In this document: in pieces, positions 35,673 to 39,217 of the stretch
Position numbering within the stretch: position 1 is the first letter of the stretch
Layout: each line of letters begins with the position of its first letter
Assembly: GCF_011044975.1 (NCBI RefSeq)
Contig: NZ_JAAKZV010000005.1
Span: 37,037 to 101,036 of the forward strand
Reading direction: 5' to 3'
From: Streptomyces coryli
GTDB lineage: Bacteria > Actinomycetota > Actinomycetes > Streptomycetales > Streptomycetaceae
DNA length: 64,000 nt
Notes under the pieces: model-generated
Seen by the model: the letters and a program-made list of their open reading frames with translations, nothing else
The model's database searches: none
Told to the model about the DNA's origin: nothing
Made by a program: the position numbers and the translations under genes

Positions 35673-36689
35673 TCACGCCGCCCGCCCCACCAGCTCCCGC
35701 AGCACATCCTCCATGGTGACCAGCCCGGCCAGCCGCCCGTCCTCGCCCGTCACGGCCGCCAGATGGGTGCTGGAGCCGCGCATCGCCGTCAGCACGTCGT
35801 CGAGCGGCATCGACGCCCGTACCCGCGCGATCCGCCGCAGCGCCCCGACCGGGAACGGCAGGTCGCGGACCGGAGCGTTCAGCGCGTCCTTGACGTGCAG
35901 ATAGCCGAGGATGCGGCCCAGATCGTCGACCACCGGGAAGCGGGAGAAGCCCGACTCGGACGACATCCGCTCCAGCTCCTCCGGGGTAATCCCGAACCGC
36001 GCCGAGACCACGTCCTCCTTGGGCAGCACGACCTCGCTGACCGGGCGGCGGCCCAGCTCCAGGGCCTCCTGGAGGCGACCGGTCGCCTTGTCGTCGATGA
36101 GTCCGGCCTCGCCGGAGTCGGCCACCATGCGGGCCAGCTCGTCGTCCGAGAAAGTCGCGGACACCTCGTCCCTGGTCTCCACCCGCAGCAGTTTGAGCAG
36201 CGCGTTCGCGAACGCGTTGATCGCGAAGACCACCGGGCGCAGCGCCCGCGTCATCGCCACCAGCGGCGGGCCGAGCAGCAGAGCGGTGCGTACCGGATCG
36301 GCCAGCGCGACGTTCTTCGGCACCATCTCGCCGAAGAGCATGTGCAGGTACGTGGCGAGCACCAGCGCGATCACAAAGGAGACCGCGTGGGCGAGCCCGT
36401 CCGGGATGCCGACCGCGTGGAAGACCGGCTCCAGCAGATGCGCGATCGCCGGCTCGGCGACGATGCCGAGGACGAGGGTGCACAGCGTGATGCCGAGCTG
36501 GGCGGTGGCCATGAGCGTGGAGACGTGCTCCAGGCCCCACATCACCCGCCGCGCCCGCCGGTCGCCCTCGCGGGCGTGCGGCTCGACCTGGCTGCGGCGT
36601 ACGGAGATGAGCGCGAACTCGGCGCCCACGAAGAAGGCGTTGACGACCAGCGTCGCCAGGCCGATGAGCAGCTGGATCATGGTGGTCAT
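35673..36689 (-). CDS. CNNM/CorC-type membrane protein (DUF21 plus CBS domains), gene 2
   Basis: A 338-residue protein with an N-terminal DUF21/CNNM transmembrane domain (about 5-145, three to four helices, with VGAEFALISVRRS and GEMVPKNVALADP) and a pair of CBS domains (about 205-330, PKEDVVSARF, SRFPVVDDLGRILGYLHVKD). The C-terminal CorC_HlyC domain seen in gene 1 is missing. Homologues are linked to magnesium transport or efflux. The ATG at 36689 overlaps the stop of gene 1 (ATGA), so the two are coupled and probably form a heteromer. Confidence 0.88.
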   Translation of the reverse strand: MTTMIQLLIGLATLVVNAFFVGAEFALISVRRSQVEPHAREGDRRARRVMWGLEHVSTLMATAQLGITLCTLVLGIVAEPAIAHLLEPVFHAVGIPDGLAHAVSFVIALVLATYLHMLFGEMVPKNVALADPVRTALLLGPPLVAMTRALRPVVFAINAFANALLKLLRVETRDEVSATFSDDELARMVADSGEAGLIDDKATGRLQEALELGRRPVSEVVLPKEDVVSARFGITPEELERMSSESGFSRFPVVDDLGRILGYLHVKDALNAPVRDLPFPVGALRRIARVRASMPLDDVLTAMRGSSTHLAAVTGEDGRLAGLVTMEDVLRELVGRAA

Positions 36690-38047
36690 CGGCGCGCCTC
36701 CTGCCGCTTGGCGGCCACGGGCTCGGCCGCCGGCTCGTCCTCGGGCAGCGGCGCGTGCAGCACGACGCGTGCCGCCCGCCGCCCGGTGGCGTCGACGACG
36801 TCGAGGCGCCAGCCGGCCACCTCGATGGTGTCGCCGTCGGCCGGGATCCGGCCGAGCTCGGTGGCGATGAGCCCGGCGAGGGTCTCGTACGGGCCCTCGG
36901 GGGCGCGCAGCCCGATCCGCTCCAACTGGTCCGAGCGGGCGGCGCCGTCGGCGTTGAACAGCCGGCGGCCGTCCGTGCCGGTCCCGGCCGGGGCCAGGTC
37001 GGGGGTCTCGTCGGGGTCGTGCTCGTCGCGCACCTCTCCGACGACCTCCTCGAGGATGTCCTCCATGGTCACGACGCCGGCCGTGCCGCCGTACTCGTCG
37101 ATGACCACGCCCATCGAGCGGGCCGTCGACAGCCGGTCGAGGAGCGTGTCGCAGGGCAGCGTCTCCGGCACCAGCACCGGCTCCCGCAGAAAGGCGGTGA
37201 CGGGGCGGCGGGCGCGCTCGTCGGCCGGTATCGCGAGGATGTCCTTGATGTGTGCGATGCCGACGACCGAGTCGAGGGACTCGCGGTAGACGGGGAAGCG
37301 GGACAGGCCCGTCGCCCGGCAGGCGTTGGCGACGTCCTCGGCGGTGGCGTGCACATCCAGGGCCATGACCTGCACCCGCGGCGTCATCACGTTCTCCGCG
37401 GTCAGCTCCGCCAGGTGCAGGGTGCGTACGAACAGCTCCGCCTGGTCCGCCTCGAGGGAGCCCTCCTTGGCGGAGTGCCGGGCCAGGGCGATGAGCTCCT
37501 GCGGGCTGCGGGCGGAGGCGAGCTCTTCCGCGGGCTCCATACCCATGGCGCGGATGAGGCGGTTCGCGGTGCCGTTGAGCTGGCTGATGAAGGGCCGGAA
37601 GACGACCGAGAAACCGCGCTGGAAGGTGGCCACCCGTTTGGCGATGGGCAGCGGCTGCGAGATCGCCCAGTTCTTCGGCACCAGCTCGCCGACGACCATC
37701 AGCAGCACGGTCGAGATCGCCGTGCCGAGGGCCAGCGCGAGGCCGCCGACCGCGCCCTCGGGCACGCCGACGGCGGTCAGCGGGCCCTGGATGATCGCGG
37801 CGATGGACGGCTTGGCGAGCATGCCGACGACCAGGTTGGTGACGGTGATGCCCAGCTGCGCGCCGGAGAGCTGGAAGGTGAGGCTGCGTACGGCCTTCAG
37901 GGCGCTCTCCGCGCCCCGCTCGCCGCGGTCCACGGCGAGCTCCAGGTCGGCGCGCTCGACGGTGGTGAGGGAGAACTCGGCGGCCACGAAGATGCCGCAC
38001 GCCAGCGTCAGGGCCAGCGCGACACCGAGGAGGATCACTTCGGTCAT
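36686..38047 (-). CDS. CNNM/CorC-type membrane protein (DUF21, CBS, CorC_HlyC), gene 1
   Basis: A 453-residue protein with DUF21/CNNM helices (about 4-165, VAAEFSLTTVERADLE, GELVPKNWAIS), a CBS pair (about 215-345, MTPRVQVMALDV and VIDEYGGTAGVVTMEDILEE) and a C-terminal CorC_HlyC domain (about 370-440). The family is implicated in Mg2+ and Co2+ homeostasis. Its ATG lies only four bases after the stop of a short acidic/proline-rich leader frame, and the ribosome site (GGGACGG) is inside that leader, so translation is probably coupled to it. It heads the run to the second CNNM gene, SGNH, purB and mug. Confidence 0.9.
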   Translation of the reverse strand: MTEVILLGVALALTLACGIFVAAEFSLTTVERADLELAVDRGERGAESALKAVRSLTFQLSGAQLGITVTNLVVGMLAKPSIAAIIQGPLTAVGVPEGAVGGLALALGTAISTVLLMVVGELVPKNWAISQPLPIAKRVATFQRGFSVVFRPFISQLNGTANRLIRAMGMEPAEELASARSPQELIALARHSAKEGSLEADQAELFVRTLHLAELTAENVMTPRVQVMALDVHATAEDVANACRATGLSRFPVYRESLDSVVGIAHIKDILAIPADERARRPVTAFLREPVLVPETLPCDTLLDRLSTARSMGVVIDEYGGTAGVVTMEDILEEVVGEVRDEHDPDETPDLAPAGTGTDGRRLFNADGAARSDQLERIGLRAPEGPYETLAGLIATELGRIPADGDTIEVAGWRLDVVDATGRRAARVVLHAPLPEDEPAAEPVAAKRQEARR

Positions 38048-38051
38048 CGGG

Positions 38052-38120
38052 TCACCACCGTCCCATGATCGCCGGAGCGGGCGGGGTGGCGCGATGGCAG
38101 GGACTTGGAGGCTCGTCCAT
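38052..38120 (-). CDS. Putative leader peptide of the CNNM operon (22 residues)
   Basis: A 22-residue frame (ATG at 38120, TGA at 38054-38052) ends four bases before the CNNM ATG. It starts MDEPPSP and has Pro at 4, 5, 7, 13, 14 and 16, acidic residues at 2-3 and an Ile-Met-Gly-Arg-Trp end. Early acidic and proline residues are the hallmark of mgtL (MEPDPTP), whose nascent chain destabilises ribosomes at low Mg2+. The frame overlaps the stop of a tiny upstream frame (TGATG) and its start is in the loop of a CGTCCA/TGGACG hairpin. Coding is an inference from position, composition and coupling; no expression is proven. Confidence 0.5.
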   Translation of the reverse strand: MDEPPSPCHRATPPAPAIMGRW

Positions 38121-38134
38121 CAGTGGACGCTCAC
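38120..38134 (-). CDS. Upstream mini-frame (GTG AGC GTC CAC TGA) coupled to the leader peptide
   Basis: Four codons (read as MSVH) begin with GTG at 38134 and end with TGA at 38122-38120, whose final A is the first base of the leader ATG. A GAGG sequence lies six bases before the GTG, the only good Shine-Dalgarno in this leader. The longer leader has no ribosome site of its own, so it would rely on reinitiation after this mini-frame. Confidence 0.4.
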   Translation of the reverse strand: MSVH

Positions 38135-38192
38135 ACCTTTCCTCGGATACGGGTGACGGAAGGATCAATGTTAAAGGACCGGCAAAGTGCGG

Positions 38193-38618
38193 TCACCGCG
38201 GGAGCGGCTTCACCCACCGGCGCCACTGCTCCTGTGGCGCGTACCCGGCCCCGCGCCAGGCATGGTGGGCGAGCTCGTTCCGCTCCAGCACCATGGCGTC
38301 GAGCCGCCGCCCGCCCAGCGCCGCGAACCGCTCCTCGGCGGCCTGGAGGAGCGCGCCGGAGATGCCCTGGCGGCGGTGGTCCGGGTGCACGGCCAGCCGG
38401 TAGAGGTGGCAGCGCCAGCCGTCGAACCCGGCGATCACCGTGCCGACCAGCTCCCCGTCGCGCTCGGCGAGCAGCAGCGCCTCCGGGTCGCGGTCGATGA
38501 GCGCGGCGACGCCGTCCGGGTCGTCGCTGACGCTCGTACCCTCCGCGGCCTCCTTCCAGAAGGCGAGCACGGGGTGCAGATCGGCGGGGGAGGCGTGGCG
38601 TATGCGGAGATCACTCAT
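38193..38618 (-). CDS. GNAT family N-acetyltransferase
   Basis: A 141-residue GNAT protein. The acetyl-CoA loop is [23 protein letters not shown] (Q/R-x-x-G-x-G/A), preceded by the [21 protein letters not shown] strand. The size is minimal for the fold. The substrate is unknown. It is separated from the CNNM genes by 145 bases that hold the leader frames, and is divergent from nitrobindin. Confidence 0.85.
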
Positions 38619-38674
38619 GGACGCGAGCCAAGCAGAATGCCGGCCCGGCGGGCCAGGGGATTAGTCTGCCTCCC

Positions 38675-39217
38675 ATGTTCGACCTCGCCGCAAGCCTCCC
38701 GTATCCCGACGCCGTACGCCCGGACGACCAGCCGTCGCCGCACGCACTGCTCACGCCCGTCCTCGGCCTCCTCGGCAGCTGGGCGGGCCGCGGCCGCGGC
38801 GAATACCCGACCCTGGCCTCGGACTTCGCCTACGAGCAGCGGGTCACCTTCAGCCACGACGGGCGCCCCTTCCTGCATTACGAGACCCGCGCCTGGCTCA
38901 TCGACGCCGACGGCGCGCCGCTGCGGCCCTCGGCACGGGAGAGCGGGTGGTGGCGGCTGCAGCCCGACGGCCGGGTGGAAGCGCTGATCACCCAGCCGAC
39001 CGGCATCGCGGAGCTGGCGGAGGGCCGGGCGGGCGATGGCGCGGTGGATATCGCGACCCACGAGGTGGCCCGTACGCCCACGGCGAAGGAGGTCGAGGCG
39101 ACCCGCCGGCGGTATGTGCTGACGGACGACGACACGCTCGACTTCACGCACGAACTGGCCGCCGTGGGCCAGCCGTTGCAGCATCACTTGTCGGCGCGAC
39201 TGCACCGAGTGGGCTGA
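38675..39217 (+). CDS. Nitrobindin-like heme protein (FABP-like, DUF1794)
   Basis: A 180-residue beta-barrel protein. The GxWxGxG motif of nitrobindins is GSWAGRG (34-40), and a C-terminal His pair (H170, H171) in [11 protein letters not shown] supplies the heme-iron ligand. The family binds ferric heme and isomerises peroxynitrite to nitrate. It is a standalone actinobacterial gene with GNAT divergent. Confidence 0.9.

Follow-up and report, generated by a model that had tools for sequence, protein, structure and literature searches.

The window analysed in our study, a stretch of 64,000 nucleotides from Streptomyces coryli, was found to contain two CNNM genes on the minus strand. The 453-aa product of the first gene matched CorC/CNNM-type structures in the PDB. 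A leader of 145 nt was present on the same strand between this gene and a GNAT acetyltransferase frame, and it contained a short upstream open reading frame (uORF). The features of the locus were as follows.

38618-38193, minus strand: GNAT acetyltransferase frame (Pfam)
38168..38187, minus strand: CTTTGC-CGGTC-CTTTAACAT element, a candidate promoter/operator
38136..38144, minus strand: ribosome-binding site of the uORF, GAGGAAAGG, with GAGG at 38144-38141
38120..38134, minus strand: window-specific 4-codon frame GTG AGC GTC CAC TGA, the TGA of which overlaps the uORF ATG at 38120
38114..38129, minus strand: start hairpin CGTCCA-CTGA-TGGACG around the uORF ATG (-8.2 kcal/mol)
38052..38120, minus strand: leader ORF (uORF) of 22 codons, MDEPPSPCHRATPPAPAIMGRW, with a TGA stop 4 nt before the CNNM start
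38103..38114, minus strand: core of the uORF, codons 3-6 GAG CCT CCA AGT (E-P-P-S), with rare codons at positions 4 (CCT) and 6 (AGT)
38092..38098, minus strand: predicted 5' arm of a helix, GCCATCG (uORF codons 8-10), pairing with the CNNM ribosome-binding site
38054..38060, minus strand: predicted 3' arm of the helix, CGGTGGT, containing the CNNM Shine-Dalgarno GGTGG
36686..38047, minus strand: CNNM/CorC transporter gene, 453 aa, with Pfam domains CNNM, CBS and CorC_HlyC
35673..36689, minus strand: second CNNM gene (CNNM and CBS domains), the start of which overlaps the stop of the first

The uORF of the window, MDEPPSPCHRATPPAPAIMGRW, contained six prolines and the acidic residues D2 and E3 in the N-terminus MDEPPSP. 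The AAAGG within GAGGAAAGG was located 15 nt from its ATG, and the bases CCCG separated its end (38052) from the CNNM ATG (38047). An earlier note on this DNA had described the GAGG, the GTG frame, the 22-codon ATG frame with its six prolines and two early acidic residues, and the gap of four bases before the CNNM start, and all were found on the minus strand where it had placed them. The CGTCCA/TGGACG hairpin that it described was also present; of the uORF start codon, said to sit in the loop, only the A did so, the TG being part of the stem. A reading of the GTG frame as the first leader of a tandem pair was considered. Its overlap with the ATG was true of the window, but at the same position 30 relatives contained CGC CCA, CAG CCA or similar codons, or were devoid of the GTG, and the 4-codon frame was rejected as a general first leader.

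Conservation, codon choice and distribution of the uORF

The relatives of the CNNM protein comprised 57 loci in named genomes, together with loci from further genomes. Those with an N-terminal identity of at least 64% were called Streptomyces-type and provided 125 distinct upstream regions, after 9 identical ones were dropped. A leader was picked as an ATG at most 250 nt upstream, followed by an optional G/D/A/E, then D or E, and then P-P. The frame, the distance, the stop position, the synonymous codon and codon 6 were independent of this picking.

The short frame before the CNNM gene is real and conserved in most of the Streptomyces examined. An ATG frame M-x-(E/D)-P-P or M-E-P-P was found in 112 of the 125 Streptomyces-type regions; P-P in all 112 is partly by construction, as the amino-acid pattern of the selection requires it. 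The earlier note had proposed a leader frame ahead of the CNNM/CorC operon, with acidic and proline residues close to its start, and a check in relatives; the check was run, and it returned conservation of the leader rather than its absence. The first six residues were MGEPPS in 89 leaders, MGEPPR in 6, MGEPPG in 5, MGDPPS in 5, MDEPPS in 3 and others in 4, and the length ranged between 21 and 59 aa. The motif was absent from 13 regions, among which were the near misses L013 and L015 (both MDELPS) and L145 (MGEPSG), a Frankia-type leader (L200) and others without a recognisable frame. Two early acidic residues, as noted earlier for the window, were found in only 4 of the 112 leaders, whereas 108 contained one acidic residue in positions 2-7. 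The D2 of the window corresponds to a G-to-A change, and the same change makes the U-G pair of the start hairpin U-A.

The stop of the uORF was found at +4 of the CNNM start, a 4-nt overlap, in 107 of the 112 leaders (ATGA in 67, GTGA in 39 and CTGA in 1). The remaining stops were at -4 in two leaders (the window and L016), at +1 in two and at +82 in one, and thus the ending four bases before the CNNM gene holds for the window and not as a rule. The distance from the ATG to the CNNM start varied between 62 and 176 nt, with 24 different values, and it was 2 mod 3 in 110 of the 112 leaders and in 22 of the 24 values, so that a stop overlapping or abutting the start, as expected of a coupled uORF, was maintained across insertions and deletions. 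Reading from codon 6, a stop no more than 10 nt from the CNNM start was found in 111 of 112 leaders in frame 0, in 69 in frame +1 and in 2 in frame +2. A frame kept over so many lengths, with such frame-0 stops, is the mark of a translated and coupled frame. A programmed +1 frameshift at CCU CCC A was considered but not favoured; of the 69 stops in frame +1, 59 used the TGA that is part of the conserved GGAGGTGA and lies at -4, and the stops in this frame were put down to the Shine-Dalgarno sequence.

In 81 of the 112 leaders the Shine-Dalgarno core of the uORF and the ATG were separated by about 15 nt, a spacing which is oddly long and conserved. On visual inspection, the leaders of the Nocardioides-type and of clade 3 appeared to be similarly spaced. 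A 5-pair stem of the start hairpin was possible in 69 of 70 group A leaders, where the 5' arm is present by construction, the group having been chosen by GCGTCC.

A search of 101 Streptomyces genomes with the pattern ATGGRNGARCCNCCNAGY returned 103 matches in 82 genomes, against 6 for a reversed control pattern. Of these matches, 93 (including G001) were at most 700 nt before a CNNM gene, which shows that the leader belongs to CNNM genes. In each of the 92 CNNM-linked matches that were checked, codon 4 was CCT or CCC and codon 6 was AGT; the 10 matches away from CNNM were chance-like, and 7 of them used AGC. The 19 genomes without a match still contained CNNM genes, some with MGEPPG, MGDPPS or MGEPPR leaders. 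A chance frame was ruled out by the conservation, the shared frame, the stop positions and this specificity.

Codon 4 was CCT in 99 of the 112 leaders and codon 6 was AGT in 98, whereas in CNNM genes CCT makes up 1.5% of the proline codons and AGT 1.6% of the serine codons. Among the 110 main-form leaders, the third positions of codons 2, 3, 4 and 5 differed from the commonest base in 32, 25, 12 and 10 leaders, respectively, while the first and second positions hardly varied, which for codons 3-5 is partly a result of the amino-acid pattern used in picking. The choice of rare codons suggests that the RNA or a tRNA matters, and not the peptide only.

An NTGA-overlapping uORF was found in 83 of 110 distinct loci with an N-terminal identity below 64% and was absent from 27; overlapping uORFs were present in four CNNM paralogue types. 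A related motif was found in 64 of these distant loci and in none of the other 46, counts which are descriptive since the motif families were defined post hoc from the same data. The motif occurred in another frame or position in 10 of the 110 loci, compared with the 64 in the uORF. In Actinomycetota, the distant types included a Nocardioides-type with MDGSQSS and a Frankia-type with (A/T)GCS, both groups being motif-chosen and such labels being taken from named loci and extended to other genomes by similarity. A third Streptomyces paralogue contained an overlapping uORF with MDGSSCST; other motifs were VSxPDxWS and (V/M)DxSRS(S/T), and further leaders contained MDDPPS, NEPPSP, TDPVPQ, HDPPS and PDEPPS. 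Several distant leaders, read by eye, begin almost at a -10-like box and therefore leave little room for an upstream RNA motif.

Some side observations were made among these loci. A fourth CNNM-type paralogue, GYFVAQEFAYVA (L106 and L113), also contained an MGEPPS leader, and in L106 the start of the CNNM frame was several hundred bases further downstream of the leader. In L240, L242, L243 and L246 a strong hairpin (GCAGCGTCC...GGACGCTGC and variants) was present right after AGT ACC or AGT AGC, and further on there was another motif, D(E/D)P(P/H)S. In L234-L237, L239 and L241 the VSxPDxWS uORFs were followed by a CCCGTGC/GCACGGG hairpin. These six loci had little pairing of the CNNM site with the uORF.

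The codon bias bears on a reading that we regard as rather unlikely, in which the CCU CCC AGU string and the start hairpin are what is conserved, the peptide is incidental, and the reader would be slow tRNA decoding (for example by an m1G37-dependent tRNA-Pro) or an RNA-binding factor. Besides the excess of CCT and AGT over their background, an in-frame AGT codon was found in 33 of 44 distant leaders selected for display, where it recurs with other peptides (CAA AGT AGC, TGT AGT ACC, TGG AGT ACC and CGA AGT ACC), and AGT made up 0 of 248 Ser codons counted in Nocardioides-type CNNM bodies. However, L176 and L182 (TCC) and L212 (TCA) keep D-(D/E)-P-P-S with other Ser codons, which suggests that the serine matters as a residue too. 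The variable third positions of codons 2-5 and the lack of any Rfam match at the gathering score also argue against a sensor at the level of RNA.

A uORF that only feeds ribosomes to a structured CNNM start, with no sensing and with the motif tuning initiation or early elongation, is in our estimate unlikely. The overlap of stop and start in 107 of 112 leaders suits it, as does the persistence of distant overlapping uORFs with a different N-terminus (83 of 110 loci, against 64 with the motif), and the spacing of about 15 nt together with the start hairpin would set a fixed low rate; but coupling alone leaves unexplained why E-P-P-S is conserved and is written with the rare codons CCT and AGT.

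RNA structure and base composition of the leader

In the window, the CGGTGGT site was predicted to pair with GCCATCG of codons 8-10 with a probability of 0.85-0.87. In Streptomyces group B, a 10-pair helix was predicted between the CNNM ribosome site and start and uORF codons 8-11. Alignment A1, which contained 35 of the 42 rows of this group (L110 and any leader exceeding 86 nt were omitted, and the group as scripted includes a few group A leaders), had 95.9% of cells paired over its 35 sequences, compared with 21-57% when the arms were slid. Covariation consisted of one pair, C-G to U-A, in 3 sequences. Both-sided changes at this level were reached by 3 of 500 shuffles when counted as cells but by 220 of 500 when counted as pairs, and they were more frequent with a slide of -2, at 2 pairs and 10 cells, than in the unslid helix, at 1 pair and 3 cells; therefore, the evidence in group B is one of conservation and not of covariation.

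In 16 Nocardioides-type leaders the helix was 90.2% paired, against 46-67% when slid, and its covariation score was reached in 0 of 500 shuffles. In 9 distinct Frankia-type leaders helix 2 was 100% paired, with one both-sided cell that was matched by 55 of 500 shuffles, and an upstream hairpin with AGT in its loop was 74.1% paired. Closure of the downstream site was thus well paired in three lineages and the window, with clear covariation in the Nocardioides-type only. Over 108 Streptomyces leaders, pairing of the Shine-Dalgarno sequence was 0.78 compared with 0.74 with shuffled uORFs (mean z 0.50), and in the clade 3 (its pattern missed L164), G234 and G240 groups it was near the shuffle level. 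Predicted closure of the CNNM site is the rule, partly because GC-rich leaders fold anyway.

Other structures were considered. The whole leader of the window folded no better than shuffles (z 0.36), which excludes a globally stable fold. A pairing of CCTCC (codons 4-5) with the GGAGG of the CNNM site appears less likely: of the pairing of the Shine-Dalgarno sequence in the 108 leaders, only 4% was with codons 1-7 (17% in the window), although this pairing is present in a consensus fold computed from 23 group A leaders. An M-box or other known riboswitch was rejected, as no Rfam match at the gathering score was found in the window or in 15 related loci; one sub-threshold match to a microRNA was judged to be chance.

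C-rich, G-poor RNA is the kind preferred by Rho. The interior of the uORF contained C at 0.48 and G at 0.22, with C exceeding G in 112 of 112 leaders, compared with 0.36 and 0.33 at the CNNM start. Such a composition would suit an attenuator in which early ribosome loss bares the uORF RNA and Rho terminates before CNNM. Rho is reported to act in the topAI uORF system (PMC12121999) as well as in a uORF-containing Mbox leader from mycobacteria (PMC12810186). Nevertheless, the region upstream of the uORF was also C-rich (C 0.37, G 0.26; C above G in 99 of 112) and Frankia-type leaders were balanced (C 0.35, G 0.33). As the explanation of the leader such attenuation is improbable, although it is compatible with a coupled leader and does not exclude it.

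Upstream of the leader, an element CTTTGC-N-CCTTTA(A/C)CAT was found in its full form in 49 of 112 leaders and in a looser form in 68. It contains nearly a direct repeat of CTTTxCxxAT and is possibly a promoter plus operator. A -10-like TAACAT was read by eye in the element at 38168-38187; a scan of 37800-38800 for a sigma-70 consensus promoter found none.

Known Mg2+ leaders and the proposed mechanism

In MgtL and mgtQ of E. coli and Salmonella, early acidic and proline residues hinder or abort translation and thereby report low Mg2+ (PMC11282234; PMC8092293). The mgtL leader of mgtA is similar to the CNNM leader in that early acidic and proline residues precede a Mg2+ transporter, and the MgtL-type destabilising motif relies on repeated early acidic residues, EPDP (PMC11282234). 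Unlike the CNNM leader, mgtL activates an importer when Mg2+ is low, via RNA refolding and Rho, whereas the CNNM leader usually contains one acidic residue, P-P and an overlapping stop and has an exporter-type target. mgtQ of the Salmonella mgtCBRU operon is also a uORF with early Asp/Glu residues, a Mg2+ transporter gene and a sequestered ribosome site, on which it acts; it differs in its length of 8 codons, in its position within an intergenic region of 219 nt and in that its abortion raises mgtB (PMC8092293).

YoaL of yoaE/mgpA in E. coli and Salmonella is, like the present frame, a short uORF overlapping a CorC-type gene, but its target is a TerC-CorC protein and not CNNM. According to PMC12421838, a stop replacing the YoaL start codon lowers MgpA translation in Salmonella, a role of YoaL in the high-Mg2+ response of mgpA is suggested, and corC rises at high Mg2+, as does mgpA at neutral or alkaline pH. 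The same paper argues that a destabilising sequence in CorC would lower CorC at low Mg2+, so that expression would rise with Mg2+. For CorC (YbeX) of E. coli the sign is the one proposed for the CNNM leader; the destabilising sequence there is in the protein's own N-terminus, whereas here it would be in a separate upstream frame. By this analogy, the proposed sign would have a precedent in argument (CorC), though none in which a CNNM gene is preceded by a leader of its own. RAPP-type leaders such as ApdA of Actinobacteriota are conserved uORFs with Pro-Pro motifs, but they carry their motif at the C-terminus, begin with an export signal or membrane segment and have a sec or yidC target (PMC10987492). 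In the CNNM leaders P-P was at codons 4-5, the target was CNNM, and no export signal was seen by eye.

The earlier note had likened the leader to mgtL and proposed a switch by which the CNNM operon would be induced through ribosome destabilisation when Mg2+ is low. The position ahead of a Mg2+ transport gene agreed with the likeness (93 of the 103 pattern matches before CNNM), and the two acidic residues and the prolines of the window's MDEPPSP resemble EPDP of MgtL. The likeness failed in the repeated acidic motif (EPDP/DxE), which the window contains and which was found in 4 of 112 Streptomyces-type leaders, in the tandem frames and in the predicted sign. The overlapping stop and the helix predict the opposite sign, and corC and mgpA were reported to be higher at high Mg2+ (PMC12421838). 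We consider a switch of this type to be very improbable.

The overlap of stop and start and the helix over the CNNM ribosome site predict coupling, by which early drop-off would turn CNNM off, and such a response suits an exporter. The uORF is probably a switch that controls translation of the CNNM transporter. In the reading that we favour, which we hold with about even confidence, it would be a translated leader of the CNNM operon acting by translational coupling, set by Mg2+ and with a sign opposite to mgtL. A ribosome passing the early E-P-P-S(AGU) would open the helix and terminate on the CNNM start, where it would reinitiate or admit another ribosome. A pause or fall-off at codons 3-6 would keep the helix shut and the CNNM site closed; the stalled or lost ribosome would also leave C-rich RNA bare, and Rho could then stop transcription. 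The condition read at codons 3-6 would be ribosome stability or elongation speed, set, less certainly, by Mg2+. The CNNM protein is, judged from its family, likely a Mg2+ exporter, which would be off at low Mg2+ and on when Mg2+ is ample. One early acidic residue, as in 108 of 112 leaders, is weak by the MgtL standard and counts against destabilisation by low Mg2+.

In the literature searched, outside which most subscription journals fell, no description of the leader was found. Compared with known coupled uORFs on Mg2+ genes, what appears to be new here is the early motif, which is distinct and biased in its codons, together with a predicted sign that is the reverse of that of mgtL. It is possible, though we hold it at somewhat less than even confidence, that the leaders form an Actinomycetota-wide family before CNNM/CorC exporters, in which ribosome stability or slow decoding would be read at a fixed early E-P-P-S(AGU) and a coupled, overlapping stop would reverse the logic of mgtL, the exporter being off in Mg2+ shortage and on in abundance. 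The leader is a concrete and deeply conserved candidate for the control of Mg2+ efflux in Actinomycetota without a known riboswitch. The CCU/AGU bias in a stretch of six codons gives a direct handle on whether the peptide, tRNA decoding or RNA structure would be the sensor. The leader also provides a natural setting in which to ask if codons that are slow or destabilising near the start of such a frame are able to shut a gene down instead of activating it.
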